DNA of 64,000 bases from Turicibacter sp. (GTDB taxonomy: Bacteria > Bacillota_I > Bacilli_A > MOL361 > Turicibacteraceae), in NCBI GenBank assembly GCA_009780245.1, contig WRAJ01000006.1, forward strand, positions 1 to 64,000, given 5' to 3'. How positions within the stretch are numbered: the first letter of the stretch is position 1; each line of letters starts with the position of its first letter. Below are positions 877 to 60,576 of this stretch, in pieces. The position numbers were made by a program, and so were the translations under genes. The notes under the pieces were generated by a model. That model did not search any database. It was given only the letters and a program-made list of their open reading frames with translations, and was not told where the DNA came from.

Positions 877-1416
877 TTACATTTTGTTAATTGTGCTGAC
901 ATTATCAGAAACATCCGGCTCTGCACATTCACCTACTTCTTGTTGTAAAATCGCCAAACCATGATGAAGTGTTGGTAAGATAAAAGACAGGTTCTCTCTC
1001 ACTGCTTTTGGACTACCTGGCAGGTTAATGATGAGTGATTGTCCTCGAATGCCAGAGACACCACGCGATAGCATGGCTCTTGGTGTGATTTGCATACTGT
1101 GATGCCTCATTGCTTCGCTAATACCGGACACTTCTTTTTCTAAAATAGCCTTCGTTGCCTCTGGCGTTTGGTCACGTGGGGATAAGCCCGTACCTCCTGT
1201 TGTTAACACAAGTGCTATTTTTTGATAACAAGCGTGAAGCAACGTTTGTTTGATTGCTTGAAAGTCATCGCTAATCAGTTGATAAGAAACCACTTCATAA
1301 CCTGCTTCTTTGACCATTTTGCAAATAAGCTCGCCACTCACGTCTGTTTTGTTTTTGTCAGCTGACCGCGAGTCTGACACGGTCATCACCGCCACCGTTT
1401 TTTTATCTAAATCCAT
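877..1416 (-). CDS. mogA: MogA/MoaB molybdopterin adenylyltransferase
   Basis: Activates molybdopterin by adenylation before molybdate insertion by MoeA. The 179-residue protein has the MoaB/Mog fold signatures: VMTVSDSRS near the start, the substrate loop TTGGTGLSPRDQTPEA around residue 70, and INLPGSPKAV around 130. It overlaps the modA stop by 14 bases and has AGGAGGT 11 bases before the ATG, so it is translationally coupled. It is the last cofactor gene of the operon. MogA and MoaB are not separable by sequence in Bacillota; function is the same. Confidence 0.93.
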   Translation of the reverse strand: MDLDKKTVAVMTVSDSRSADKNKTDVSGELICKMVKEAGYEVVSYQLISDDFQAIKQTLLHACYQKIALVLTTGGTGLSPRDQTPEATKAILEKEVSGISEAMRHHSMQITPRAMLSRGVSGIRGQSLIINLPGSPKAVRENLSFILPTLHHGLAILQQEVGECAEPDVSDNVSTINKM

Positions 1417-2173
1417 GATCCGCTAGCACCTCCTGTCCAGTATCCGATAAAATGAAGCGATAAAATTCATAAGCGATGTCAAGCTGATTCTCTTGATTAA
1501 TTAACGCCAGATAGAAGGTTCCCACCACTTGATAGTGAGGGGGTAATGCAATAACGGTCACCTCACTTAATGTCTCTTCTGAAAGATCGGTTGCATAAAC
1601 AAATGTCGCATCACTTTCATTTAACATCACATAGAGCAACGCTTGCCTAACATTACTAGCACGTGAGACAACATTGCCTAAAACAGCCTCTCTGAATCCA
1701 GGATCATCACGATCAACGAGATGCAAGATGATATCGGTATAAATCCCAATTGGCACCTCATAACCGGCAAATATCAACGTTAACTCGTCATTCGCAAGAT
1801 CATAAATCGACGCAATCTCTGGCGTAGCGGTTACTAAAACAACCGGACTTTCAGCGAAACGCTCACTCTGATTGACCATACCAAGCTCGGTGAGCGCTTG
1901 AACGGGATCAAGATGCGCCGATAAAAACACGTCAACAGGGAAACCTTCCATGATTTGTTGTCGCAATTGATTGGAACCTGCAAAGTTCAGCCTGATCATA
2001 ACCTGTGGCTGTTCCGCCATAAATAAATCGGCTAATTCGGTCGCAACCTCTTGTAAAGAAGCAGCTGCAGATACATGTAATTCAACTTCCTCTGCACGAC
2101 CTTCACAACCGCTTAACAATGTAAGCATCAGGGGTAGTACGATAAAATAACTTACAAATTTTATACGTCGCAT
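1403..2173 (-). CDS. modA: ModA molybdate-binding lipoprotein
   Basis: Extracellular substrate-binding protein of the molybdate ABC importer. 256 residues, with a short signal peptide ending in a lipobox (TLLSGC, lipidated Cys at about residue 23) and the oxyanion-binding signature VSAAASLQEV directly after it. The start at 2173 has GGAGGGG 7 bases upstream; a longer in-frame N-terminus to 2287 would run through the MOSC gene and lacks a signal-peptide layout. Overlaps the MOSC gene by 13 bases. Partner genes modB and the ATPase lie 3-5 kb upstream in the same operon, separated by moaA and MOSC, which is an unusual split of the transporter. Confidence 0.93.
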   Translation of the reverse strand: MRRIKFVSYFIVLPLMLTLLSGCEGRAEEVELHVSAAASLQEVATELADLFMAEQPQVMIRLNFAGSNQLRQQIMEGFPVDVFLSAHLDPVQALTELGMVNQSERFAESPVVLVTATPEIASIYDLANDELTLIFAGYEVPIGIYTDIILHLVDRDDPGFREAVLGNVVSRASNVRQALLYVMLNESDATFVYATDLSEETLSEVTVIALPPHYQVVGTFYLALINQENQLDIAYEFYRFILSDTGQEVLADHGFR

Positions 2174-2592
2174 ATCATTACCCCTCCTACTCGCACAATG
2201 CCGCCCTTGACCACCTTCGCAAACACCCCGTTTGTTGGCATAATGCAATCCCCCATTTTGTGAAAGATGTGACAACGCACGTGGCAATCTTTTCCAATCT
2301 GGGTTATTTCAAGTTCAACGTCTTGGCATTTAAGCCTAGTTCCAACAGGCAGATTGACTAAATCGAGCCCTTCAACGATTAAATTTTCGCCAAATGCCCC
2401 GTCATGCACGTCTGCACCACGCGCGTTAAAATCAGCAATTGTTTCGTATGCCAACAGCGACACTTGGCGATGCCAGTTCCCAGCGTGGGCATCCTGTTCA
2501 ATGCCGTGGTCCGCGATGAATTTTGCCTCTTCGACATAGGTTTTCTGTGTTCCTTTTCTTTTACTGATGCAAATAGCTTTCACCACCGCCAT
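2161..2592 (-). CDS. MOSC-domain protein
   Basis: 143 residues forming a single MOSC domain, the beta-strand domain found C-terminally in Moco sulfurases and alone in many Bacillota Moco operons. Visible signatures are GIEQDAHAG near residue 35, GAFGENL near 70 and the conserved GKDCHVRCHIFH segment containing the Cys thought to carry sulfur. It probably handles Moco or sulfur for a molybdoenzyme. ATG at 2592 has GGAGG 7 bases upstream; only 4 bases separate it from moaA. Confidence 0.9.
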   Translation of the reverse strand: MAVVKAICISKRKGTQKTYVEEAKFIADHGIEQDAHAGNWHRQVSLLAYETIADFNARGADVHDGAFGENLIVEGLDLVNLPVGTRLKCQDVELEITQIGKDCHVRCHIFHKMGDCIMPTNGVFAKVVKGGIVRVGGVMICDV

Positions 2593-2596
2593 CTTT

Positions 2597-3565
2597 CTAA
2601 CCTCCAATTTGGATCATGCTTTTTAGCTCTTTATTTTCAACTTCTTGACCAAACAAATGCCTCTTCGGCTTCTCTTGTAAGGCCTCTAATATTTTTGCCT
2701 CCAAACAACCATCTGAAATAGCTTGCTTTAAATTAACACCGTGACTAAACGCTAAACAAGTTTTTAAAAACCCATCTGATGTCACCCGCATGCGATTACA
2801 TGTCTCACAAAAATGGCGACTCATGGCAGAAATAAAACCGACTTTCCCTTTAAAGCCCTCTACTTCATAATAGCGGGCTGGTCCATTTCCAAGGGGTTGC
2901 AAAAAAGGGGTTACCTCACCATAATGTTGCGTTAGCAGGTGCTTAATTTCTGCTTCTGATAATGCTGAAGTCGCCACTTGATTGCCCATTGGCATCTTTT
3001 CGATAAAGCTCACATTCGCCCGCGTATCTTTTGCCAGATTCACAAGTGAGCGTAAATCTGCCTCTGTCAAAGACGGGAGTAACACCGTATTAACCTTCAC
3101 TTTCTTAATCTGACTTTCTACAGCAGCCGTTACCCCTTTCAAAGCGTCTTCTAACCTACCAACCCGTGTAATTTCCGCATAATGTACGGGGTTTAAGGTG
3201 TCCAGACTAATATTGACACTGTCAAGGCCTGCCTTCACCAAATCAGCCATCGTCTCAGGTAGCTTAATCCCATTTGTTGTCAAAGTCACTTCTTCAATCC
3301 CTGTTAGTTTCTTCAAATCTTGAATTAGCGACATAATCTTAGGATAAAGCAACGGTTCACCACCTGTTAATTTCACTTTTTTAACCCCTAGCGTTGAAAA
3401 AACAGCTACGATTTCCTTTATCTCATCGTAAGTCAACTGCTCATGCGCTTTTAGACAGCTCACATTTTCATCTGGCACGCAATAACCACAACGTAGCTGA
3501 CAAAGATCCGTCAAAGACAACCGTATGTAGTCGATGTTTCTTCCGAAATTATCTCTCATCTTCAC
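2597..3565 (-). CDS. moaA: MoaA GTP 3',8-cyclase
   Basis: Radical SAM enzyme for the first step of molybdopterin synthesis, with MoaC. 322 residues with the N-terminal SAM cluster motif CQLRCGYC, TGGEPLLYP, and the second-cluster motif CETCNRMRVTSDG followed by KTC; the C-terminus ends in the conserved Gly-Gly needed for activity. Two starts are possible: GTG at 3565 (AAAGG 6 bases upstream) or ATG at 3559, which gives the more usual MxDNFGR start. Either overlaps the preceding fusion gene by 11-17 bases. Confidence 0.95.
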   Translation of the reverse strand: MKMRDNFGRNIDYIRLSLTDLCQLRCGYCVPDENVSCLKAHEQLTYDEIKEIVAVFSTLGVKKVKLTGGEPLLYPKIMSLIQDLKKLTGIEEVTLTTNGIKLPETMADLVKAGLDSVNISLDTLNPVHYAEITRVGRLEDALKGVTAAVESQIKKVKVNTVLLPSLTEADLRSLVNLAKDTRANVSFIEKMPMGNQVATSALSEAEIKHLLTQHYGEVTPFLQPLGNGPARYYEVEGFKGKVGFISAMSRHFCETCNRMRVTSDGFLKTCLAFSHGVNLKQAISDGCLEAKILEALQEKPKRHLFGQEVENKELKSMIQIGG

Positions 3566-5222
3566 TCAATACCTTTCGTTTAATCAGTGCCACTAGCGCA
3601 CGTACATCCGTTCGTTTAAACGTTGGAACCCCTTCGTGTTTAAACGCACCGTCCGTCACCACGGCAAGCAAATACTCAGGCAAACAGACCGAGTGTTCCA
3701 AAACAACTTCAATTTTAGGAAACGTTGACTGTTTCAACCCTTCAATCACAACTAAATCCATCTCATAAAAGTGGTGAAGCACGTCTTCAATCACCGTCTT
3801 TTTTTGACGCTTCATCAAAGCAAACTGTTCATCAGAGTAAATTAACGTCGCATCGCTACCCGCTTGTTGAAAGTGATAGGTATCTGTTCCGACATGATCA
3901 ATCTCAAACTCATGACCATCGTGCTTAATCACACCCACACGATAACCTTCCGCTTTAAACGCGCGAATCAACGTCGTAATCAACGTCGTCTTGCCACTAT
4001 TTTTAACACCACTCACACAAAAAACTGCTGGCTTTTTAACCTTTCGTAAATCGCTTTTCGTGTTCACATTCAGCAGCGTTTTATCACCAAAACAACTAAA
4101 TGATAAGGGAATATATTTCGTTTTTACCCGTGCTAACAATGCCATCATGTGGTAATTTTCCTCATTGATCATCTGCTTAATCGTCGGCAAAACTGACTTT
4201 CGATAAATCGCACAAAGCGGGTGAACCTTGTTCGTACTCCTCATCACAAACGCATCGTAATCCGAACTGATAAAGGCTGTCATAAACAGTAAAAGCTCTT
4301 TTTCAAAATACGGCATGTCCACGGCCCATACGAACAAATAGTCATTTTTGCAATGCTTTAAAGCACTATACAACCCACCAAGCGGGCCAATCCGCTCGGT
4401 TTCATCCACCACCACAGGAAAGGGGAGCGAATCATACAAGGTCGCATCTCGGGCCGAAATAAACACATCACTAAAATCGGATAACTCAGCGAGCGTCTTT
4501 TCGATAAAGGTCTGGTTTTCTAACTTCAAAAAGGCTTTTTGAAAGCCACCTAATCGCGACCCTTTTCCACCAGCCAAAATAGCAACACTGAGTCTCATTT
4601 CCTCGTTCTTGCCAATGCCTCGCTCAACAATCTTGCCTTGTTCGATTCGCAAAATGTGGTGACTCATCGCTTTCGCTTCCTCAATATCATGCGTGACTAA
4701 AATAGTCGGGATGTTTAACTGTTCTTTTAAATACGTACGGATTTTTAACCGCAATGCCGCATCCAAAGCGCTAAAAGCTTCATCTAAAAGTAACAACTGC
4801 GGATTACTCATCAACGTGCGAACAATGGCGACCCGCTTTGCTTCTCCGCCAGAAAGCTCACTAACGTGCTTGTTTAAATGTGGGCTTAATTCAAAAACAG
4901 CGATATATTCCTCAAGCTTTTCTTTGCTTTGTTGCCCGCGATACGTCATATTTTCAAGGACCGTTAAATGAGGAAACAAGGCGCTGTTTTGCTTGACGTA
5001 ACCAAAGCGACGTAAATGAACCGACACGTTCGTATAATCTTGTTCAGCGTGTTTAATCCAGCCTTCATCAAGTGGCAATAAGCCAGCAATGGCATCTAAA
5101 ATACTTGTTTTTCCAGCACCTGATTTTCCAATTAAGACGGTCATTTCACCTGCATGGACTTCAAAATCAACCGCAATCAAAAAAGTCTCACTCAGTTGCT
5201 TTCTAAGACGAAAATTAAACAT
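3549..5222 (-). CDS. ModC-MobA-MobB fusion (molybdate ATPase, MGD synthesis)
   Basis: One uninterrupted 557-residue frame holds three proteins. Residues 1-207 are a short ModC-type ABC ATPase: Walker A GKSGAGKT at 32, LSGGE at 123, Walker B LLLLDE at 143, H-loop His178; the usual C-terminal TOBE/Mop domain is missing. Residues 209-397 are MobA, which joins GMP to molybdopterin: LAGGKGSRLGGFQKA at 216. Residues 398-557 are MobB: Walker A GVKNSGKTT at 405 and VIKHDGH at 432. MobA-MobB fusions are known; fusion to ModC I consider unusual. Met209 would be a natural MobA start but the GAGG before it is only 2-3 bases away, so independent translation looks weak. AAGGAG precedes the ATG; ends overlapping moaA. 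Confidence 0.9.
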   Translation of the reverse strand: MFNFRLRKQLSETFLIAVDFEVHAGEMTVLIGKSGAGKTSILDAIAGLLPLDEGWIKHAEQDYTNVSVHLRRFGYVKQNSALFPHLTVLENMTYRGQQSKEKLEEYIAVFELSPHLNKHVSELSGGEAKRVAIVRTLMSNPQLLLLDEAFSALDAALRLKIRTYLKEQLNIPTILVTHDIEEAKAMSHHILRIEQGKIVERGIGKNEEMRLSVAILAGGKGSRLGGFQKAFLKLENQTFIEKTLAELSDFSDVFISARDATLYDSLPFPVVVDETERIGPLGGLYSALKHCKNDYLFVWAVDMPYFEKELLLFMTAFISSDYDAFVMRSTNKVHPLCAIYRKSVLPTIKQMINEENYHMMALLARVKTKYIPLSFSCFGDKTLLNVNTKSDLRKVKKPAVFCVSGVKNSGKTTLITTLIRAFKAEGYRVGVIKHDGHEFEIDHVGTDTYHFQQAGSDATLIYSDEQFALMKRQKKTVIEDVLHHFYEMDLVVIEGLKQSTFPKIEVVLEHSVCLPEYLLAVVTDGAFKHEGVPTFKRTDVRALVALIKRKVLSEDER

Positions 5223-5228
5223 AGGCCC

Positions 5229-5993
5229 TTACTCCTTTGACAAAAAATGAACACTAACGAGCACAATGCCAGCGATGATAAACATGATAAATGATAAAAA
5301 CAAAGCATGATGAACGTTGGTTTCAAGTGCACTAAAAATAGCAAGTGGTAGCGTCTGGGTAACGCCTGGCAAATTCCCAGCGAACATCATCGTCGCACCA
5401 AATTCCGCTAAACCCCGACTCCACGCCATTAACAAAGAGACCAGAATCCCTTTCTTAGCAAGTGGTAGACTGATACGAAAAAAGACCTTTCTCGCATCAT
5501 CACCGAGCAATGCGGCTGTTTGTTCCAGTTCAGGATCAACTTTTGAAAATGCCAAACTACAGCCATTAATAAAGAGGGGTAACGAAACAAACACAAAGGT
5601 AAGCATAACCGCTAAACTAGAAAAGCTTGTGCGAATCCCTAGGCGTGCTAACTGTTGACCAATAAAACCGTGGTTACCGTATGTGAACAACAATAACAAA
5701 CCAATCACAGCAGGTGGCAAGATTTGCGGCAGGTTGAGAAGAGAATCAAGAACCGATTTAAACCGAAACGTGGAGCGTGCCATGTAATAACCAGCAGGTA
5801 TCCCCACTAAAATAACAACGACCATCGAAATAAAACTACTAACTAAACTGACCCTTAAACTCGCCCAAATAAGCGCTGGGTTTAAGTTACTCAACACTAG
5901 AAAGTCATATCGAAGCGCAAAATTTAAAAACGGAAGCGACAAAAACACGAGTGCAACAAAATAACTTAATTTGAAAAAAATTTTATTTTTCAT
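5229..5993 (-). CDS. modB: ModB molybdate ABC permease
   Basis: Membrane subunit of the molybdate importer, 254 residues with about six hydrophobic segments and the permease coupling motif ([19 protein letters not shown] then [17 protein letters not shown]), the latter typical of ModB/CysTW. It ends 6 bases before the ModC-containing fusion gene that should power it. ATG at 5993 overlaps moaC by 11 bases; a GTG at 6017 has a slightly better AGGTGG but adds a non-typical N-terminus. Confidence 0.92.
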
Positions 5994-6462
5994 AAGAGAA
6001 CTCGCCACTTTTCCCACCTGACTTATAAGCTAGATGAACATCCGTGATGGTCATTTTTTTACACATGGCTTTGCACATGTCGTAAATGGTTAACAATGCG
6101 ACGTTGACCCCAGTCAAAGCTTCCATTTCGACACCGGTTTTGTGATCAACTTTCACTGTGCAAATTGCCTGAATCATATGCTGCTCAAAATCAAGCTCAA
6201 AATCAATGCGACACTCGCTAATGAACAGCGGGTGACACAGCGGAATTAAATCGGACGTTTTCTTCACCGCCATGATGCCAGCTAACCTTGAAACACCAAG
6301 GACATCGCCTTTTTTATTGCTACCCGCTTTAATTTGTGCCATGATTTCTGAATTGACGTGGATGTTTCCTTTGGCAATCGCAATGCGTTCCGTAACTGGT
6401 TTTTCAGTAACGTCCACCATCACCGCTTCCCCAGCTTCGTTGAAATGTGTTAATTTGCTCAT
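5983..6462 (-). CDS. moaC: MoaC cyclic pyranopterin monophosphate synthase
   Basis: Second step of molybdopterin synthesis, converting the MoaA product into cPMP. 159 residues, full length. Key MoaC stretches are [21 protein letters not shown] (from about residue 60), the HPL that follows, and [18 protein letters not shown] with the catalytic Lys/Asp region. AGAGGTG lies 8 bases before ATG. Confidence 0.96.
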
Positions 6463-6477
6463 TTAAATACACCTCTT

Positions 6478-7689
6478 TTAGTCAAGCATGACGACGTTGA
6501 CACTCATGCCTTTTTCAAGTTTTGGTGAGCCTTCAGGGATGTCGATAAAACAATTACAATCTAGCATACTTGATAAAACAGAAGAAGCATGCTTAGACGT
6601 TGGCAGAAAAACTTCGCCTGCTTGATAATAAGCTCGGATAAAACGGCGACGCTTACTTACTTTTAAAAAATCATGCCTCAAAATGGCTGTTATACGCTCA
6701 TGAAATGCTCCTTTTTGATGCATGAAGGCTTTACAAATTGGCTTTACTAGCAATTCGAAATTAGTTAAAGAGGCAAACGGATTGCCTGAAAGACTCAAGA
6801 TGAGTTTATCGTAGTAGCAACTAGCTAATACAGGTGTGCCAGGTTGAATATCGACTCGCCAAAAAAGTTGCTTTGCCCCTAGCGCTACGATGACATCGTG
6901 CATAACGTCTTTTTCTCCGACTGATACGCCACCAGTTGTGACAATGATATCGACTTCATTGATCCACGAATCAATCACTTCACAAATCGGTTTTGTCAAG
7001 TCAGGCAGTTGTTTGATGACGTGTGTTCGTACCTGCAACTCTTTCAATCTTCCTAGCAACATAAATTGATTGCTATTGTAGATTTGCCCTTCTTTAAGAG
7101 GCTTTCCTAATTGAGCTAATTCATCGCCTGTGCTCAATAAGCCTACTTTTAATGGTTGCAAAACAGTGACAGTTTCAATGCCAATACTTGCTATGATTCC
7201 TAAATGAATGGGTGTTAATGGGGTATGCTTGGCGATGATCCATTCACCTTTTTGAATGTCTTCTCCTTTTTTACCGTAGTTGGTATAGGGTTGGATTTCT
7301 GTGTAGATTTCAACAACCTCTTCACCACCATCCGTGTCTTCTTGCCGAAGAACCGCATCGTAACCGTCTGGGATCGGTGCACCTGTCATAATCCGAAGCA
7401 CATGGTTTGCTTCCAATTCGCATGGATGGGCATTCCCTGCTGAAACTTCCGCAGCTACTTGTAGCTTCAAAGGTGTCTTTTGGGTTGCACCTTTAGTAAG
7501 TGTTGATTTAACGGCATAACCATCCATCGCTGAACGATTAAAGGTTGGCACATCAATCGGAGCGTATAAATCTTCGGCAAGAAAATAGCCGAGTGCTTTT
7601 TGCAACGGTATTTGCATCGTTTTTTGCTGTGGCTTCACATGTGCTCGTAAGATCCTGAGTGCTTCTTCTAATTCAATCGGTTTTGTCAT
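6478..7689 (-). CDS. moeA: MoeA molybdopterin molybdenumtransferase
   Basis: Inserts molybdate into adenylated molybdopterin. 403 residues, the usual MoeA length, with PTFNRSAMDGYAV near residue 50, IMTGAPIPDGYDAVLRQEDT near 100, STGDEL near 190 and TTGGVSVGEKD near 250, then NPFASLTNFE. It lies 15 bases after the molybdopterin-binding gene and 15 bases before moaC. Confidence 0.96.
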   Translation of the reverse strand: MTKPIELEEALRILRAHVKPQQKTMQIPLQKALGYFLAEDLYAPIDVPTFNRSAMDGYAVKSTLTKGATQKTPLKLQVAAEVSAGNAHPCELEANHVLRIMTGAPIPDGYDAVLRQEDTDGGEEVVEIYTEIQPYTNYGKKGEDIQKGEWIIAKHTPLTPIHLGIIASIGIETVTVLQPLKVGLLSTGDELAQLGKPLKEGQIYNSNQFMLLGRLKELQVRTHVIKQLPDLTKPICEVIDSWINEVDIIVTTGGVSVGEKDVMHDVIVALGAKQLFWRVDIQPGTPVLASCYYDKLILSLSGNPFASLTNFELLVKPICKAFMHQKGAFHERITAILRHDFLKVSKRRRFIRAYYQAGEVFLPTSKHASSVLSSMLDCNCFIDIPEGSPKLEKGMSVNVVMLD

Positions 7690-7703: not shown

Positions 7704-8732
7704 TTAGCTTTTCCCAAATTCACAATGGGGAAATGTACACGCCTGGCACTTTAAGCATAAACCGCCATGCCCGAGCTGTGCGATCTCCATCATTGTAATG
7801 GTATCCTGGGCTAAAATGCGTGGTAATATCAAATCAAAGCTTGTTGTACTCGCATACATGACACAACCCGGCAAACCAAGCACAGGTGTCCCATCGTCAA
7901 AGTAGCCGATCAGTAACATAGACCCGGGCAAAACCGGTGCACCATAGGTTAGAATTTCTGCACCTGCTGCTTTGATTGCCGTCGGTGTTACATCATCCGG
8001 ATCAACGCTCATCCCTCCGGTACAAAGAATCAACTCGGCCCCTTGCTCGCGAAATTCAGCGATCGTCTGTTTGATTATTTCCACATCATCAGGGACTACT
8101 TTATGAAGATCGATTTGCAAGTCATAATCGGCCAATTTTTCTGCGATTACCGGCGTAAACGTATCTTGAATTCGCCCGTGATAAATCTCGTTCCCGGTTG
8201 TGATGACTCCGACTTTAAAAGTGTGAAATGCTTTGATCTCAAGGAGGGGAACGCCAGTAGAAAGGGTTGTGACAGCACTCATTTTTGCTTTTTCAATCAC
8301 AAGCGGAATAATGCGCGTGCCAGCGATTTTATCACCTTTTTTAATGACAGTATTGTTGTGACGCGTGGCGATAATGAGGTTCCCTAGCGCGTTGATTTGG
8401 TACAATCGCTGCGTATCAACCTTAAGCAAACCACGGGCACGGGCAATGACTTCAATCTTCCCCTCGTGAACGGCAGTCGCAGCCATGGCATTTGAACTGC
8501 CAGCACAAGCATCGTATAAAATTTCTGCCGCCTCATTTTCATGCATCCTATTCTCATCCATTTCATAAATATATAGATGATCCTTGCCAACTGAAAGCAA
8601 TTTTTCGATATCGCCTTCTTGGATAATATGCCCTTTTTTAAATAGCACACCGGCTTTGACATCTTTAATAATCTGAGTAATATCGTGACTTAACGTATGA
8701 CCGACTGCATCCACTGTTTTAATTTTTTTCAC
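7704..8732 (-). CDS. Molybdopterin-binding MoeA-like protein with Cys-rich tail
   Basis: First gene after the riboswitch. 342 residues; the N-terminal half follows the pattern VGHTLSHDITQI...FKKGHII...LSVGKDHLYI, the C-terminal half is a MoCF_biosynth domain (TGNEIYHGRI, CTGGMSVDPDDVTPTAI, PGSMLLIGYF). It ends in CLKCQACTFPHC, a candidate Fe-S or Zn site absent from MoeA. Members of this family accompany molybdoenzymes in Clostridia and Bacilli, function not settled. The GTG at 8732 is chosen because GGAGGT lies 9 bases upstream; the longer frame to 8777 would run into the terminator hairpin. Confidence 0.85.
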   Translation of the reverse strand: MKKIKTVDAVGHTLSHDITQIIKDVKAGVLFKKGHIIQEGDIEKLLSVGKDHLYIYEMDENRMHENEAAEILYDACAGSSNAMAATAVHEGKIEVIARARGLLKVDTQRLYQINALGNLIIATRHNNTVIKKGDKIAGTRIIPLVIEKAKMSAVTTLSTGVPLLEIKAFHTFKVGVITTGNEIYHGRIQDTFTPVIAEKLADYDLQIDLHKVVPDDVEIIKQTIAEFREQGAELILCTGGMSVDPDDVTPTAIKAAGAEILTYGAPVLPGSMLLIGYFDDGTPVLGLPGCVMYASTTSFDLILPRILAQDTITMMEIAQLGHGGLCLKCQACTFPHCEFGKS

Positions 8733-8754
8733 TTTGCGATGACCTCCAACGATA

Positions 8755-8810
8755 TAAAAAATCGTCAATCTGCCCATTTAAGAAATGCTTAAAAAGGCAA
8801 ATTAACGATT
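8755..8810 (-). terminator. Intrinsic terminator of the riboswitch expression platform
   Basis: On the minus strand a 15-base arm (8810-8796) pairs with 8774-8760, two positions being G-U pairs, and is followed by TTTTTT. It sits between the aptamer and the first operon gene, only 23 bases before the start codon, where a termination switch belongs. Confidence 0.75.
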
Positions 8811-18481: not shown

Positions 18482-18513
18482 AATTTACATAGTAATAATT
18501 AGGAGTGATTAGC

Positions 18514-19614
18514 GTGGCAGAAGTACAATTAAAAAATATTTATAAAATTTACGATGGAAACCCAAAACCATCGGTAACGGATTTCAATTTAGACATTCAA
18601 GATAAGGAGTTTATCGTCTTCGTAGGGCCATCTGGTTGTGGTAAATCAACGACGTTAAGAATGATCGCTGGTTTAGAAGAAATTTCTGAAGGTGAATTAA
18701 TCATTGATGGAACGCGCATGAACGATGTCGCACCTAAAGATCGCGACATTGCGATGGTATTCCAGTCGTACGCACTTTACCCACACATGAACGTGTTTGA
18801 TAACATGGCATTTGGATTAAAGTTACGTAAAGTACCAAAAGATGAGATTAGACAAAAAGTTGAAGATGCAGCAAAAATTTTAGGTCTAGAAGAGTATTTA
18901 GAGCGTAAGCCTAAAGCCTTATCGGGTGGTCAGCGCCAGCGTGTGGCATTAGGACGTGCGATCGTTCGTAACGCAAAAGTATTCTTAATGGATGAGCCAT
19001 TATCAAACTTAGACGCGAAACTACGTGTATCAATGCGTTCTGAGATTATCAAATTACATGAGCGTTTAGCAACGACGACGATTTATGTGACGCACGACCA
19101 AACTGAAGCAATGACAATGGCATCACGTATCGTTGTTATGAGAGACGGTTTGATTGAGCAAATTGGAACACCAAAAGAAATCTATAACACGCCTGCAACG
19201 GTCTTCGTTGGTGGGTTCACAGGTTCTCCTGCTATGAACTTCTTAGAAGGGAAAATCGAAAACGGATACTTTAATGTTTTAACTGGAAAATTCAAAATTC
19301 CAGAAGGAAAGTACAAAGTGCTAGCTGATAAAGGATACGAAGGGAAAGACATTATTTTCGGTATTCGTCCGGAAGATTTAAGTAACGACCCATTAGTGGC
19401 AGAGGTGCACGCAGATGCTAAATACAAAGCAACCGTTGAAGTATCAGAGCTACTTGGACATGAGCTCATTGTTTATACAGCAATCGGTGAGCAAAGAGTC
19501 ATTGCTAAACTTGATGCGCGTAACGAAGTGGCGATGCACGACCAAATTGAATTAGCTATCGACATGAATAAATGTCACTTCTTTGATAAAGAAACAGAAG
19601 AAGCAATCAGATAA
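18514..19614 (+). CDS. msmK: MsmK/UgpC-type sugar ABC transporter ATPase
   Basis: 366 residues: ABC ATPase with Walker [10 protein letters not shown] near residue 38, LSGGQRQR near 135, Walker [13 protein letters not shown] near 158, H-loop THDQTEAM, then a C-terminal TOBE/OB regulatory region from about 240. This is the shared ATPase that energises several sugar permeases in Bacillota; no permease gene is adjacent, which fits a multitask subunit. GTG at 18514 is chosen because AGGAG lies 8 bases upstream. Confidence 0.93.
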
Positions 19615-20107: not shown

Positions 20108-20478
20108 GGGGATGTTTAGGATTCGACGGGAGTGTGTCACCCTTGATAAGCAAGTCGTGTTTGCCCACGTTAAAAGGTTCGAGGTTATAATAACCGGAAA
20201 CAATAATAATTTACAATTAGCTGCTGCCTAATTTCGATTAAGTAGTAAGCCGCTACTAGACGTTGTAGTTACCCACGCTGCGGTTTAGCTAGCTCACTTA
20301 AATTGTGGGATACGTTTCGATGTGCCGCCTGAGCATCGAAAAAGAGACCTTAAGGCTCGCAAGTCATCAACTTTTGTCTTTGGAGAGATGGCTTGTTAAA
20401 TCAATCAAAGACTAAACTTGTAGAAATTCGAGCGGTTAGTACTTTCGGACGCGGGTTCAAATCCCGCCATCTCCACCA
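20108..20478 (+). ncRNA. ssrA: tmRNA (SsrA)
   Basis: Rescues stalled ribosomes by trans-translation. The 5' end GGGGATGTTTAGGATTCGAC and the 3' end with a T-arm (GGTTCAAATCCC), acceptor strand and encoded CCA form the tRNA-like domain. The tag frame begins about 20197 and ends at TAA 20230-20232, reading GNNNNLQLAAA if the resume codon is GGA. The hydrophobic Ala-rich end is the usual protease signal. Pseudoknot-rich middle present by position. Length about 371 nt is normal. Confidence 0.97.
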
Positions 20479-53500: not shown

Positions 53501-55459
53501 ATGAAGAAAAAATTATTTTTATTTGCCCTCATGCTGTTTTTAGCAGTTGGACTAGTGGCATGTAACGACGACGGGGATGACTACGATGAGCCAGATACTG
53601 GTGAAGTAGGTGACGGCGAGGCTTTATTTACTGCTGGTACGTTTACTGGTGAGTCAATGGAAGGTTGGGGTTCTGGGCCAATCGTGGTAGAAGTTGAATT
53701 TTCTGAGACAGAAATTTTAAGCGTTACGGTTGTTTCTCACACGGAAACGCCTGGTCTTTCGGACGGTGCGCTAGAGCAAGTGCCTAGCCAAATCGTGGCC
53801 TATCAGACGTTAATGGTTGATGCCGTATCTGGTGCTACGATTACGGTTGAAGCTATTGTGGATGCCGTGATAGATGCCGTTGAGCAAGCAAGTGGTGACG
53901 TTGATGCGTTAATGCTTGATGTCATTACGCGTGTAGCTGGTGATCCAATCTATGTGGATGTAGATGTGGTTGTCATCGGTGCTGGTGGTGCTGGGTTATC
54001 TTCTGCGATCATCGCCTTAGAAGAAGGCGCAGATGTGCTAGTATTAGAGAAGACTTCTGCTCCTGGTGGAAACACGCTAGCAGCTGGTGCAGGGACGTTA
54101 GCATGGAACGCGGTTCAGCCGGATCGTATTGCGATGAGAGAAGCGATTCCTGGTCAAACAGCCTTTTTAGAAGGGTTCTTAGACTATGACCCAGCTGATT
54201 TTGCTCCTGGCTTCGATGAGGCATTAGTTATCCTACAAGAGCAAATCACTGAGTTCTTAGCTGAAGGTGACGCGTCGGCTCACTTCGATACGCTAGAATT
54301 CCACTTAGTTCAAACGTATACAGGTAGTATTCGTTACGAATTAGACGACACAAGAGTTTATAGCGATTACGATCTTGCTCGTATCATGGTTTACTATAGT
54401 TACGAAGCTCTGCAGTGGATCGAAGAATTAGGTGGCGAGTTCCGTGATGGCTTAATCGAGCCAGGTGGTGCCATGTGGACACGTGGTGCAGCGCCTTACA
54501 CGAACAACCAAGTGGATATCTTTGATCCAATGGTAGCTAGAATTGACGAGCTTGGTGGCGACATCATGCTAAACACAACAGCTGAAGAGCTCATCGTAGA
54601 AGATGGCGCAGTTGTTGGTGTAACTGGTACACAAGCCGATGGAACGCCAGTGACGGTTAATGCTGGTTCAGTGATCATTGCAACTGGTGGCTTTGCTGCT
54701 AACACAGAAATGGTTGCTTACTACAACAACTTCTGGGAGAACTTCACGGCTGATATCTTAACAACAAACGTATCATCAGCACAAGGTGAAGGCATCATCA
54801 TGGCGCAAGCAGCTGGTGCTGATGTGACGCAAATGGGGATCACGCAGTTAATGCCAATGGCGTTTGAAGCAACGGGTCAACTTGCTGGTGGTCACCAAAG
54901 AGGCATCGTCTACCTAAACGAAGATGGTGAGCGTTTCATGAACGAAGTAAACGAGCGTGACACCATTGGTGCGGCAATGTTTGCACAAGGTGGAACGGTA
55001 TTCGAACTTAGAAGAGTTGAAGACGCGATTCCTTCACACGTCGACATGGCTGGCGATGACACGGGACGCGTATTCCTTGCTGACACAGTCGCAGAAGTGG
55101 CTGAACTTGCTGGTTTAGATCCAGATGTGGTCGTTGCAGAGGTTGAAAGATTCAATGAATTCGCGGCAGCTGGTTACGATGAGGACTTTGGGCGCGTTGT
55201 GTTTGACAACGATTTGGCTGACGGGCCTTTCATTATCAGAGTCCTATCACCGTCTACCCACTACACAAATGGTGGTTTAATAACAACCACTGACGCAAGA
55301 GTACTCGGCGTAGACGGGGAAGTGATTCCAAACTTGTTTGCCGCTGGAGAAGTAATGGGCGGCATCCATGGCGGAAACCGTCTGGGTGGAAATGCCGTTG
55401 CTGAAGCCTTTGTATTCGGTAGAATCGCTGGTGAAATGGCAGCGATTAACGCACAATAA
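53501..55459 (+). CDS. Surface flavolipoprotein 1 (fumarate/urocanate reductase type)
   Basis: 652 residues. Lipobox LVAC (Cys21), acidic linker, FMN_bind domain with DAVSGATIT (107-115; the last Thr is the FMN attachment site in this family), then an FAD-binding domain with GAGGAG (160-165), the Arg loop NERDTIGAA and C-terminal HYTNGG...AAGEVMGGIHGGNRLGGNAVAEAFVFGRIAG, the signature of FrdA/UrdA. It should sit outside the cell and take electrons from membrane quinones. Substrate open: fumarate, urocanate or another enoate. Own promoter and terminator. Confidence 0.93.
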   Translation: MKKKLFLFALMLFLAVGLVACNDDGDDYDEPDTGEVGDGEALFTAGTFTGESMEGWGSGPIVVEVEFSETEILSVTVVSHTETPGLSDGALEQVPSQIVAYQTLMVDAVSGATITVEAIVDAVIDAVEQASGDVDALMLDVITRVAGDPIYVDVDVVVIGAGGAGLSSAIIALEEGADVLVLEKTSAPGGNTLAAGAGTLAWNAVQPDRIAMREAIPGQTAFLEGFLDYDPADFAPGFDEALVILQEQITEFLAEGDASAHFDTLEFHLVQTYTGSIRYELDDTRVYSDYDLARIMVYYSYEALQWIEELGGEFRDGLIEPGGAMWTRGAAPYTNNQVDIFDPMVARIDELGGDIMLNTTAEELIVEDGAVVGVTGTQADGTPVTVNAGSVIIATGGFAANTEMVAYYNNFWENFTADILTTNVSSAQGEGIIMAQAAGADVTQMGITQLMPMAFEATGQLAGGHQRGIVYLNEDGERFMNEVNERDTIGAAMFAQGGTVFELRRVEDAIPSHVDMAGDDTGRVFLADTVAEVAELAGLDPDVVVAEVERFNEFAAAGYDEDFGRVVFDNDLADGPFIIRVLSPSTHYTNGGLITTTDARVLGVDGEVIPNLFAAGEVMGGIHGGNRLGGNAVAEAFVFGRIAGEMAAINAQ

Positions 55460-55497
55460 TTCCAAATGTATTAACATTTGAATTTCGTATTAAACAA

Positions 55498-55552
55498 ACA
55501 ACCTTCGGTAAATCGTGAATTTTTCAGGGATCTCCGGAGGTTGTCATTTTTT
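55498..55552 (+). terminator. Terminator of flavolipoprotein 1
   Basis: ACAACCTTCGG pairs with CCGGAGGTTGT, then ATTTTTT. Confidence 0.8.
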
Positions 55553-55688
55553 AAACGATTGTCGTCCGCATATTATAAAAAGCGATTGCACGAAGAGGGG
55601 AAGAGTGTTGCATTTTGTGTGTGTCATCATAACTGATACGATTAAGCAAATATAAAAGGGTTGAAGCCCAAACAAAGGAGAGAAAGGC

Positions 55689-58127
55689 ATGAAGAAGTTT
55701 ACCAAGCAAAAAAGAATTAAACTATTTGCCAAAATAGCTGTATTAGCCGTAGCGGTTGGTATTGCAATAAACGTACTACCAGCTACTTATGCACAGCGCG
55801 ACGACATCCCCTACGCACCGTGTGAGGATCGTTACCTCGTATTGTGTGGTAGAACGCCAGGTATGATCATCTTGGATCGCAGAGGAAATCAATTGCGCTG
55901 TCCAGACTTTATACCTAATCCTGATTTCCCACTTGTGCGACGCGCACCAATGTATATTTGTCCAGAAGCGGCGTCAGCGTTTGACGTTTTAAGAGATGAA
56001 GTCATCACCGCAATTGATGACGTTGGTTTACCAAACGTCGAAGCCTTCCTCACAGACGGCTATAGCGTCGTCGTGCCAGGGATGGAGATCATTGAGCGTG
56101 TGCGACTATCTTCAAATCCTGATGCTGCTGCGCCAAACTTAAGTGCGATTTATGACCCTTATATGATTCCTTTTACCTATTGGGACACGTTAGGGATTCC
56201 AGCGATTGCAAGTGAGTGGGGATCTCGCGATGCGACTGGTATTTATGCGCTAGTAGATCAGCTGATTGCACTTGCAGAAGCTGAGGGACGCGATTGGACG
56301 CTCGAAACAGATGACGATCCGAGTCTCGCTAATTTCGCAGCATTTGCGCTTCTGCACGCGCCAATGGCAAGAGCCGGCACACCAGTCTATACGAACTTAG
56401 TTAATATTGTGAGTGTTCACGCGGATACGCAAAGAACGCAAGAAAACGATCCTGATCCGTCTTTTGATAGCACATTAGATTACCGCGTGTTCTTAGCTGC
56501 TATTGAAGTGGGTGAAGGGCCACTGAATGAATTGAGAATCGCCAACATCTTACCGGATGCTGGACCATCAGGAGGTCCTGGTCAACCAATATTGGCACCT
56601 TGGGATGGCATTAGAGCGCAAGTGTTTGACTTCGATTTCAATTATCAAGGCGTTGTGGTTGGGTTTAGATCAATTAGAACCGATAACCCACAACATTTTG
56701 TGCCGACTTACATTGACGGCGTTCGTCACATCAGAATTGGTGATTACTTAAACACCTACTTCCCGGTTGCACCTGATGCAAAATTCTATTGGGTGTCAAC
56801 TGGCGCAACGGCTGTGCAAGATATCAGGCAAATGGATTGGGCAGAGTTAGAGCCAAGTATTTCTCAGCACATTCGCGTCGTGTTCTGTGAGAATTTCGAA
56901 ACCATTATCGAAGTTTACATCAGTGCCGGAACGCGCGCGGCATTACCAGCAAACATTGACGGGGTTCGTCGATTCACTTACCATTTAGGTGTTGTGCCTC
57001 ACGATGCAAGGTTCGGATTTAATGAAAGAGAAAACCCGCACCCTATTAGCTACTCTTTGTTTGACCCAACCAGATTCCCTGAAGAGACGGGTGCAACTGA
57101 TCCAGATGGACGTTACCCACTGTTCATTTACTTCCACGGGCTCGGTGGTGGTGCGAATATGAATACGTTCTCTAATTTTGGTATTCCTTTCACTTTCGAA
57201 GGTCGTCAACGTGAATTTGAGAATGAAAACCCTGCATTATCAGGTGCCTTTATTATGAACATGCGCGGAAACCAATTCGCTTCTTCGTCACTCGGTCAAG
57301 ATTGGATGCATGGCAATAGAAGTTACACGAATCCGATGTGGGCTGCTGGGTACGAAGCTTATCGAGCTAGACCAACTAATGTCGCAGCCATTGTGGCAAA
57401 TGTTCAGCGATTGATTGCTGACAATCCAAACATTGATCCAAACAGAATTTACTTAACAGGTATTTCAGCTGGTGCCTACATGGCTTTCTTTACGCTGTTA
57501 GAAGCACCTGACTTATTCGCTGGTGGGATGTTTGTTGTCCCTGCCTTCTTCCCGCATGACGATGCTCGACCATACATGGATGCGTCGATGTTCTTTGAAG
57601 GTAGCGATTTTGCAGAACGTTTCATGGCTGTTATGCACATCCCAATGTGGTGGACCAGTCATCCAAACGATCCGATCACACCGTTCTATTACACCACGCA
57701 AGCAGAGTTCCCAACGGCTATCTACGGGCAGTATGCCATCAATGCTTTGATCAATGCCTTTAGAGAGAGTCCAAATGGAAACAGCTTAACGCGTGTAGAC
57801 GTTAATAACCGTCAACGTAATGCAGCTGGTAACATTGTAATGGGGCACTCTGGTAATCAATTGGCAGATAATAACCGATTTAACGATGATGTTGTGAGAG
57901 ACGGCATTCAGCTTCGTTACATGTCACAAATCTTTGGTGAGCGTCCGGCGGATTGGGTACCACATCCACCGTCGATGTCAACGGCACCAACACCGCAAGA
58001 TGCTAACATTTACTCTTATGGAACCTGTAGCGTTTACAGCACACAAGAGCCATGGTTAGGTTCTATGATTGAATGGTTTAATGCTGCTGCTGCGGGCCGA
58101 GACTACAACCCTAGAACAGCTGAGTAA
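55689..58127 (+). CDS. Secreted alpha/beta hydrolase (esterase-like)
   Basis: 812 residues. Basic N-terminus and signal peptide ending near ATYAQ (about residue 36). The C-terminal third is an alpha/beta hydrolase: oxyanion region FIYFHGLGGGANMN near 480, nucleophile TGISAGAYM near 595, acid candidate in HPNDPITPFY near 655 and a late His. The first 450 residues are a beta-rich region of unknown role. Resembles esterase/PHB-depolymerase-like secreted enzymes. AAAGGAG precedes the ATG. Confidence 0.8.
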   Translation: MKKFTKQKRIKLFAKIAVLAVAVGIAINVLPATYAQRDDIPYAPCEDRYLVLCGRTPGMIILDRRGNQLRCPDFIPNPDFPLVRRAPMYICPEAASAFDVLRDEVITAIDDVGLPNVEAFLTDGYSVVVPGMEIIERVRLSSNPDAAAPNLSAIYDPYMIPFTYWDTLGIPAIASEWGSRDATGIYALVDQLIALAEAEGRDWTLETDDDPSLANFAAFALLHAPMARAGTPVYTNLVNIVSVHADTQRTQENDPDPSFDSTLDYRVFLAAIEVGEGPLNELRIANILPDAGPSGGPGQPILAPWDGIRAQVFDFDFNYQGVVVGFRSIRTDNPQHFVPTYIDGVRHIRIGDYLNTYFPVAPDAKFYWVSTGATAVQDIRQMDWAELEPSISQHIRVVFCENFETIIEVYISAGTRAALPANIDGVRRFTYHLGVVPHDARFGFNERENPHPISYSLFDPTRFPEETGATDPDGRYPLFIYFHGLGGGANMNTFSNFGIPFTFEGRQREFENENPALSGAFIMNMRGNQFASSSLGQDWMHGNRSYTNPMWAAGYEAYRARPTNVAAIVANVQRLIADNPNIDPNRIYLTGISAGAYMAFFTLLEAPDLFAGGMFVVPAFFPHDDARPYMDASMFFEGSDFAERFMAVMHIPMWWTSHPNDPITPFYYTTQAEFPTAIYGQYAINALINAFRESPNGNSLTRVDVNNRQRNAAGNIVMGHSGNQLADNNRFNDDVVRDGIQLRYMSQIFGERPADWVPHPPSMSTAPTPQDANIYSYGTCSVYSTQEPWLGSMIEWFNAAAAGRDYNPRTAE

Positions 58128-58156
58128 TTAGTTTTGATCAATCATCAACTAAGCTT

Positions 58157-58196
58157 AAAAATACATCACTGGCAGTGTGTGGTGATGTATTTTTTT
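58157..58196 (+). terminator. Terminator of the hydrolase gene
   Basis: AAAAATACATCAC and GTGATGTATTTTTTT around a 12-base loop. Confidence 0.9.
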
Positions 58197-58333
58197 GTAA
58201 TAAATAAGGATACCCTTGCATAAGATTTACAGTTGCTGATCATTTCGCAATTTTTTGTCTTGCTCGTTTTGAGATTGTTTTTCCATTTTTCATCTTAGCG
58301 TTCACTTGTCGTACGTATATACGAAAAAAACGG

Positions 58334-58395
58334 TTGCATTTGTGGCGCTTTGATGTTATAATTGTGAGGGCACAATTTTTGTGATCGGTTTCACA
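58334..58395 (+). promoter_or_regulatory. Promoter and Rex-like operator of flavolipoprotein 2
   Basis: TTGCAT (58334-58339), 17 bases, TATAAT (58357-58362). Downstream are ATTGTG-N4-CACAAT (58361-58376) and TGTGATCGGTTTCACA (58380-58395), the latter with Rex half-sites TTGTGAT and TTCACAG. Confidence 0.65.
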
Positions 58396-58445
58396 GTTTC
58401 TCGGTTTTAACTGAACAAGATTTTATTTATAAAGGAGAGAGATTC

Positions 58446-60446
58446 ATGAAGAAAAAACTATTTTTATTTGCACTCGTGCTGTTCTTAGGTATCGGTCTTG
58501 TTGCATGTAATGACGATGATAACGGCGATGACTACGATGAGCCAGACACTGCTGATGAGGTAGAGGATGAGAATGGCGATGGTGCATTTACACCAGGAAC
58601 GTTCACTGCACAAGCTTCTGGTTGGGGGATCAGACCAATCGTTATTGATGTCACCTTTAGCGAGGATGCGATCACGGATATCGAGATTATTTCTCACGAT
58701 GAAACACCAGGACTATCTGATATCGCATTTGATCAAGTACCAGCTCAAATTATTGAGCATCAGTTGTTAAACGTTGATGCGGTAGCTGGTGCAACGTTAA
58801 CCAGAATGGGTATTATCATGGCTACTAGAGACGCTATTGAGCAAGCCGGTGGTAATGTCGCGGACTTCAATGATTCATTGCCTGCACCTGTTGCTGGCGA
58901 CCCAATCACTAGAGAAGTCGACATTGTTGTCGTTGGTGGTGGTGGCGCTGGAATGACGGCTGCTATCGCTGCTATTGAAGCTGGAAGCGATGATGTCTTA
59001 TTAGTTGAGATGACGGCTCAAGTTGGTGGGAACACGCTTGCTGCAGGTAACGGATTCCTAGCATGGAATGCGATTATGCCTGACCGATTAGAGGACATGG
59101 AAGCAATGGGTGGCCCTGAAGGTCAGAGAAACAGACTCAATATGTACCTAGGGTTAGATCCAGATACGTTCAGCGAAGGTTTTGATCAGCGCTTAATCAA
59201 CGTACAAGCAGAAATCGAAGCATTCTTAGATGACGACGACACAGCGCAATTCGATAGTTTAGATTTCTTCATGGTCCAAACTTACTTGCACAGTCGTCGT
59301 GAAGAGCTTGATGGCACGGTTGTTTCAGCTAGCTACGACTTTGTACGTCTCATGGTTGAAGGCAGCTACCCAGCCCTACAATGGATTGAATCACTAGGTG
59401 GCGAGTTTGAACATGCTATCGGTGAACCAGTAGGTGCGATGTGGCGTCGTGGTGCTAGACCAGCAAACGGCAACCACGCTGATTTATTCCAGCCAATGCT
59501 TGATGAGCTAGACCGCCTCGGTGGCGACATCATGTTCAACACTAGAATTGAAAATTTAATCTTCGAAGACGGTGAAGTAACAGGTGTTGTAGGAACAATG
59601 ACGGATGGAACGGAAGTAACGATCTATGCTGATTCGGTTGTTTTAGCAACAGGTGGCTTTGCTGCAAACTTAGATATGGTAAGTTACTACGACAACTTCT
59701 GGGGAGATGACATTGATTTAGTAACTGGAACGACAAACGTTTCAGCTGCTCGTGGTGATGGTATTATCATGGCACAAGAAGTTGGTGCAGACGTTTACCA
59801 GATGGGAATCACTCAGTTAATGCAACTAGGATTCGCGCATAACGGTGTCCTTGCAACAGGCCATGCGAACTACTCGTTCTACGTTAACCAAGAGGGTGTC
59901 AGATTCATCAATGAAACAGCACCACGTGACACAGTAGCAGCAGCAGCATTTGCGCAAGGCGGAACGTTCTTTGAAGTTCGTAGTAACATCAACGAAGTAT
60001 GGAATCAACTATATTTAGCGGATGATGGCACTAGCAGAATTTACACAGCAGATACCATTGCGGAATTAGCTGAGATGGTAGGCATTGATCCAGATGTACT
60101 AGAAGCGACGTTCGAGGAATTCGTTGCGTTCGCAGAAGCTGGATACGATGAGGAATTCGGAAGAACAACGTTCTTTAGAAGAGACGACGAGTTACCAATC
60201 GCAACTGGACCATGGCACATCCGCGTGCTTCGTCCATCTACACACTACACGAATGGTGGGTTATTAGTAGATACTTACACAAGAGTTATTAACACGGATG
60301 GTGAAGCTATCCCTAACTTATTCGCTGCTGGTGAGATCATGAGTGGGGTACACGGCGGAAACCGTTTAGGTGGAAATGCAGTTGCTGAAGCATTCGTATT
60401 CGGTAGAATCGCTGGTGAAATGGCAGCTGAGAATGCTGGTAACTAG
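58446..60446 (+). CDS. Surface flavolipoprotein 2 (fumarate/urocanate reductase type)
   Basis: 666 residues, close paralogue of flavolipoprotein 1: lipobox LVAC (Cys21), FMN site DAVAGATLT, FAD motif GGGGAGMTAA, Arg loop APRDTVAAA, HYTNGGLLVD and GGNRLGGNAVAEAFVFGRIAG. Expected extracellular reductase with covalent FMN and bound FAD. Differences in the substrate-facing parts suggest another acceptor from copy 1. AAAGGAGAGA precedes the ATG. Confidence 0.93.
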   Translation: MKKKLFLFALVLFLGIGLVACNDDDNGDDYDEPDTADEVEDENGDGAFTPGTFTAQASGWGIRPIVIDVTFSEDAITDIEIISHDETPGLSDIAFDQVPAQIIEHQLLNVDAVAGATLTRMGIIMATRDAIEQAGGNVADFNDSLPAPVAGDPITREVDIVVVGGGGAGMTAAIAAIEAGSDDVLLVEMTAQVGGNTLAAGNGFLAWNAIMPDRLEDMEAMGGPEGQRNRLNMYLGLDPDTFSEGFDQRLINVQAEIEAFLDDDDTAQFDSLDFFMVQTYLHSRREELDGTVVSASYDFVRLMVEGSYPALQWIESLGGEFEHAIGEPVGAMWRRGARPANGNHADLFQPMLDELDRLGGDIMFNTRIENLIFEDGEVTGVVGTMTDGTEVTIYADSVVLATGGFAANLDMVSYYDNFWGDDIDLVTGTTNVSAARGDGIIMAQEVGADVYQMGITQLMQLGFAHNGVLATGHANYSFYVNQEGVRFINETAPRDTVAAAAFAQGGTFFEVRSNINEVWNQLYLADDGTSRIYTADTIAELAEMVGIDPDVLEATFEEFVAFAEAGYDEEFGRTTFFRRDDELPIATGPWHIRVLRPSTHYTNGGLLVDTYTRVINTDGEAIPNLFAAGEIMSGVHGGNRLGGNAVAEAFVFGRIAGEMAAENAGN

Positions 60447-60481
60447 TAGCTATTCTTAGTCATTTTACCCTTGCATCAAAG

Positions 60482-60526
60482 AAAAGCCAATGAATTGCGT
60501 ATAAATCAACGTTTCATTGGCTTTTT
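60482..60526 (+). terminator. Terminator of flavolipoprotein 2
   Basis: AAAAGCCAATGAA pairs with TTCATTGGCTTTT, then TT. Only about 50 bases separate it from the next start codon, and I see no -10 there. Confidence 0.85.
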
Positions 60527-60576
60527 TCATGAAGACAGAAACACATCCATCCACAAATAAAAAGGAGAGAAAACAA

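Follow-up and report, generated by a model that had tools for sequence, protein, structure and literature searches.

The fusion gene and its operon

The window, that is, the whole stretch of 64,000 nucleotides analysed here, carries on its minus strand a molybdenum operon of tightly overlapping genes, within which an open frame of 557 codons without an internal stop (3549..5222) joins modC, mobA and mobB. Along this strand, genes for a molybdoenzyme resembling formate dehydrogenase and for its iron-sulphur and oxidoreductase partners are followed by a Moco riboswitch (RF01055, 8807..8955; 72 bits in Rfam against a gathering threshold of 36), which lies upstream of the remaining part of the operon. 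The latter consists of the gene for a second molybdopterin-binding (MoCF) protein, here called moeA2 (7704..8777), the molybdenum insertase gene moeA (6478..7689), moaC (5983..6462), modB (5229..6017), the fusion gene, moaA (2597..3565), which overlaps the end of the fusion gene, a gene for a MOSC-domain protein (2161..2607), modA (1403..2287) and a mog/moaB-type molybdopterin-binding protein gene, mog (877..1416). The moeA, moaC and MOSC assignments are based on Pfam, that of moaA on the open frame and Pfam, and those of moeA2 and mog on Pfam and on comparison with a relative, G006, described below. The molybdate permease ModB, the partner of the ModC domain, scores 188.4 bits with TIGR02141 (cut-off 182.6) and is 60–61% identical to its G006 counterpart, and the molybdate-binding protein ModA scores 101 bits with TIGR01256 (cut-off 62.5); the ModC domain is thus encoded together with both of its expected partners. 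The listed start of modA is the first possible one, and the true start probably lies near 2171.

Elsewhere in the window, the plus strand encodes a MalK-type ABC ATPase with OB_MalK and TOBE domains (18505–19614), which has no recognised permease gene next to it and is perhaps a shared importer ATPase, and a tmRNA (20108–20478; 190 bits). The region 53501–62355, also on the plus strand, encodes three large predicted lipoproteins (652, 666 and 612 aa) that seem to form a repeated family, with near-identical signal peptides (MKKKLFLFAL.LFL..GL.ACN); a predicted exported protein of 812 aa is encoded between the first and the second of them.

Domain architecture of the fusion protein

The initial annotation had read ModC, MobA and MobB in one frame, and the domain searches bear this out. 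Pfam places ABC_tran at residues 18–150 (118 bits, cut-off 25), the MobA-like NTP_transf_3 domain at 214–364 (114 bits) and the MobB domain at 400–510 (128 bits), the latter two also far above their cut-offs. The ModC nucleotide-binding domain occupies residues 1–205 (4608..5222) and retains all ATPase motifs, namely, Walker A (GKSGAGKTS), the signature (LSGGE), Walker B (LLLLDE) and the H-loop (VTHD); in Foldseek comparisons, it groups with the MalK, PotA and ModC ATPases. The LAGGKGSRLGG motif is readable in the MobA domain (residues ~209–396; 4035..4598), as are Walker A (GVKNSGKTT), KHDGHEFEID and VIEGLK (EGLK) in the MobB domain (residues ~397–557; 3552..4034), which scores 142.9 bits with TIGR00176 (cut-off 76.2). 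For residues 211–553, the best NCBIfam match is the bifunctional MobA/MobB model, and the order of an MobA-like NTP transferase domain followed by an MobB GTPase domain, found with both Pfam and NCBIfam, is that of such proteins; the fusion, scored alone, reaches 247.6 bits with NF011056, below the full-length cut-off of 379, with positions 6–356 of 363 aligned. The earlier description of the two as both enzymes of MGD formation is accurate as to their presence, but MobB is not a strictly needed enzyme: in E. coli it is an accessory GTPase that is not strictly required for MGD formation (PMC13197769). The fusion gene is the only match to either its MobA or its MobB part in its own genome, which suggests that the Moco operon depends on the fusion, within the limits of a 76%-complete assembly.

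The joint spans residues 204–210 (GKNEEMR; 4593..4613) and contains Met209, the MobA start, as had been noted before. In the AlphaFold2 model, built from 12 sequences, the last ATPase strand (197–203) runs straight into the first MobA strand (211–216). The three domains are folded with confidence (mean pLDDT 84), whereas residues 205–208 have pLDDT below 50 and the pTM of the whole model is 0.50, pointing to a joint that is short and flexible and to domains without a predicted fixed arrangement. The ModC part lacks a C-terminal TOBE-type domain. Accordingly, the NCBIfam modC_ABC model covers residues 5–210 only, and TIGR02142, the 353 positions of which include the C-terminal domain, is matched over positions 4–220 with 165.8 bits, below its cut-off of 285.05.

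Comparison with separate genes in a syntenic relative

G006, a genome from a different genus of the same family, contains 14 genes identical in order to those of the window operon, with modC and mobAB counted separately (loci L010/L105), and a Moco riboswitch at the same place (70.6 bits). Taken together with the three family-level matches in a single frame, the conservation of this operon argues that the ModC-MobA-MobB frame did not arise by chance. The ModC part is 51–54% identical to G006 ModC and the MobAB part 48% identical to G006 MobAB, which is as close as the unfused products of moaA (51%), moeA (53%) and modA (43%), and nothing therefore points to decay.

The two operons differ at the joint. 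In G006, modC is a separate gene of 340 codons that extends ~124 residues past the point at which the ATPase of the window ends and has its own stop, which is overlapped by the GTG start of mobAB (GTGATTAA); the latter gene is preceded by a well-spaced GGAGGG ribosome site (-10.4 kcal/mol). Relative to G006, the fusion therefore lacks ~124 codons, the stop of modC and the strong ribosome site of mobAB. The suggestion that a stop codon between modC and mobA was lost by chance is right in that the stop is missing, but the absence of the other two elements shows that more than the stop was lost. Since separate genes are found in the syntenic genome and the tail is absent from the fusion, the fused state is most simply derived. 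The arrangement that the initial annotation had held to speak against the fusion if shared by all close relatives, namely, modC and mobAB as distinct genes divided by a stop codon, is thus present in G006, the only relative with the operon; this makes the fusion lineage-specific but does not make it unreal here.

Regulatory domains of ModC sit at the position of the C-terminal extension of G006 ModC. The tail loss that had been proposed from the sequence is confirmed by these ~124 extra residues; the identity of the tail as TOBE is not, as Pfam yields no TOBE match in the G006 tail even at E = 10, and a sensing role of the tail is accordingly deduced from its position. The lost tail has no counterpart in the genome of the window, at the 76% completeness of its assembly.

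The comparison also bears on whether the cell could contain free MobAB in addition to the fusion, translated from a start at Met209, a scenario compatible with a deletion-born fusion. Met209 aligns with the natural MobAB start in G006 and in the bifunctional protein of L023, and a GAGG closely precedes its ATG. This GAGG, however, lies 2 bases from the ATG (-6.3 kcal/mol), too close for good initiation, and the well-spaced site of G006 (GGAGGG, -10.4) is absent. Given such a poorly placed ribosome site, one long product is likelier than a separate MobAB, and we consider the additional internal start unlikely. We infer that the frame is made as one 557-residue protein and that the genes are co-transcribed.

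The other relatives are organized differently. In G001, a genome of the same genus as the window, mobAB has no match and the modB-like permeases are only distant. Two sister genomes, G005 (L145) and G004 (L146), carry a Moco locus with the order mobB, moeA, mobA, mog, modA, modB, moeA2, moaC, moaA, MOSC, in which no modC was detected next to modB; its permease may be served by a different ATPase. Being differently ordered and devoid of modC at modB, this locus was set aside as evidence on the joint.

Distribution of the fusion and known relatives of its layout

A search for the same domain order, as had been proposed at the outset, recovered the fusion in one genome only. Among the matches listed for MobAB queries in ~1,660 genomes, there was no second ModC-MobA fusion; the sample comprised ~850 relatives of the window genome and members of its class and phylum (with repeats), 391 Clostridia (the class of L023) and 399 Bacilli (the class of a Brevibacillus), the Bacilli result likewise referring to the matches listed. 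None of the four long frames inspected (L026, L036, L029 and L040) contained ModC; they carry MoeA or MOSC/MoaC instead, or nothing else that Pfam recognises. Beyond these four, the listed matches include MobB frames in G944 (613 aa) and G920 (465 aa) and MobA frames of ~445–465 aa in G009, G021, G042, G131, G248 and G283, with MobA N-terminal in those loci that were read. A single scan of GTDB-species contigs returned 49 relatives and other Moco fusions, none of them ModC-MobA-MobB; among plasmids, none of the best 5000 records covered 80% of the fusion protein; viral contigs yielded no match; and a search of the published literature found no ModC-MobA fusion. Thus, the occurrence of the same order in more than one species that would be expected of a conserved family was not observed among the matches listed for the genomes or in the contigs and plasmids searched, and ModC-MobA-MobB is an unreported layout known from one genome so far, all parts of which are well known.

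An arrangement close to this layout surfaced in the plasmid search. In Listeria monocytogenes (L132:8929-10153, NZ_LR134403.1), a tail-less ModC of 220 aa and the ModC part of the fusion end at an equivalent position behind the ATPase domain, and mobA follows directly, starting 20 bases before the end of modC in another frame. The Listeria genes are two, with a 20-base overlap in different frames and mobB elsewhere in the cluster, whereas those of the window form one frame; nevertheless, a single small indel would suffice to turn the pair into a ModC-MobA fusion. Among structurally characterized relatives of the same ATPase fold and family, neither of which has MobA or MobB, ModC of Archaeoglobus (2onk) is short, with 240 aa, whereas that of Methanosarcina acetivorans (3d31) has a C-terminal regulatory domain, which in Methanosarcina binds molybdate or tungstate and blocks transport (PMC10710835). 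Given the short Listeria and Archaeoglobus proteins, and that TOBE is present in only ‘some forms of ModC’ (PMC11980592), a tail-less ModC is ordinary.

The Listeria pair also lends substance to an artefactual origin of the frame. The genome is represented by a single draft assembly (60 contigs, 76% complete), so that an assembly or base error is conceivable: a real, short, Listeria-like modC might overlap mobAB through ATGA, with the fusion produced by a one-base error or by assembly collapse of the tail. The MobA ATG is indeed followed by an A, such that the +1 frame ends in a TGA overlapping this ATG, and a one-base error anywhere in the ~25 bases before the ATG would suffice for a false fusion. 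Against this, no homopolymer at the joint, within these ~25 bases, exceeds 3 bases, the neighbouring syntenic genes show no sign of broken frames and the tail sequence occurs nowhere else in the assembly. We therefore regard an artefact as improbable, and as the chief risk to the present reading.

Other Moco genes are fused as well. The bifunctional MobA/MobB proteins (NF011056, PRK14489; L023, L024 and L010) present MobA and then MobB on one chain, as in the fusion, but lack the preceding ModC ATPase domain; in L034, L035 and L038, from Clostridia, the order is reversed, MobB-MobA. Clostridia encode MoeA-MobA-MobB (L026:3735-5999), MobA-MoeA (L036:5040-7013) and MobB-MOSC-MoaC (L040:6068-7849). 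These three place cofactor-synthesis genes in one frame, as does the window, but unlike the latter, none includes a transporter subunit.

Origin and function

The fusion is unusual and lineage-specific, and probably functional. We consider it likely that it is a lineage-specific, deletion-born fusion of adjacent modC and mobAB that would still import molybdate and make MGD and leave feedback to the riboswitch. Neighbouring, overlapping modC and mobAB would have been joined with the loss of the three elements missing relative to G006 (tail, stop and ribosome site), either through a single in-frame deletion or through loss of the tail, as in Listeria, and a subsequent small indel; the +1-frame TGA positioned exactly at the MobA ATG (ATGA) fits the second path. 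Gene fusions born by deletion are a documented route (PMC12803068) and would explain the frame without recourse to a new function. In such a protein, the ATPase half would drive ModA-ModB-ModC in a pairing with ModB (ModB2C2), whereas MobA-MobB would reside in the cytosol on a linker of ~7 residues, where ModC normally has its regulatory tail, and would convert Mo-MPT made by MoeA to bis-MGD for the formate dehydrogenase of the operon. With the tail gone, feedback through ModC would be lost, and the most likely means of control is the Moco riboswitch that precedes the operon, a class that in E. coli needs Moco synthesis for repression (PMC2408646).

A further role has been envisaged for the fusion, namely, the channelling of incoming molybdate to dinucleotide synthesis. 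In the established pathway, MoeA inserts molybdenum first and MobA acts afterwards. There is little reason to expect molybdate to be channelled to MobA, given the intervening MoeA step, and the idea finds no support here, as molybdate is used by MoeA before MobA and the fusion is not conserved. A modified version would have MobA-MobB tethered at the point of molybdate entry by selection and recruiting MoeA through contacts with MobA and MobB, such that scarce molybdate is used efficiently. MobAB does occupy the position of the regulatory tail of ModC, many Moco gene fusions exist in Clostridia (L026, L036 and L040), and MoeA1 contacts both MobA and MobB in two-hybrid assays in Methylorubrum, in addition to which MoeA-MobB fusions exist (PMC13197769). 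Nevertheless, the use of molybdate by MoeA rather than MobA, the occurrence of the fusion in one genome and in none of the relatives searched, and the lack of a fixed domain arrangement in the AlphaFold2 model (pTM 0.50) leave only a small chance that coupling was selected. The corresponding picture of a transporter-tethered station, in which the tail of the importer ATPase is replaced by cofactor-finishing enzymes that couple molybdate entry to MGD synthesis, appears very improbable.

As it stands, the deletion-born fusion that we favour belongs to one genome, consists of familiar domains and calls for no new function. It illustrates a way for a transporter subunit to become joined to cofactor enzymes in a tightly overlapping operon and, if functional, would offer a natural setting in which to ask whether an operon controlled by a Moco riboswitch can dispense with feedback through the ModC tail.
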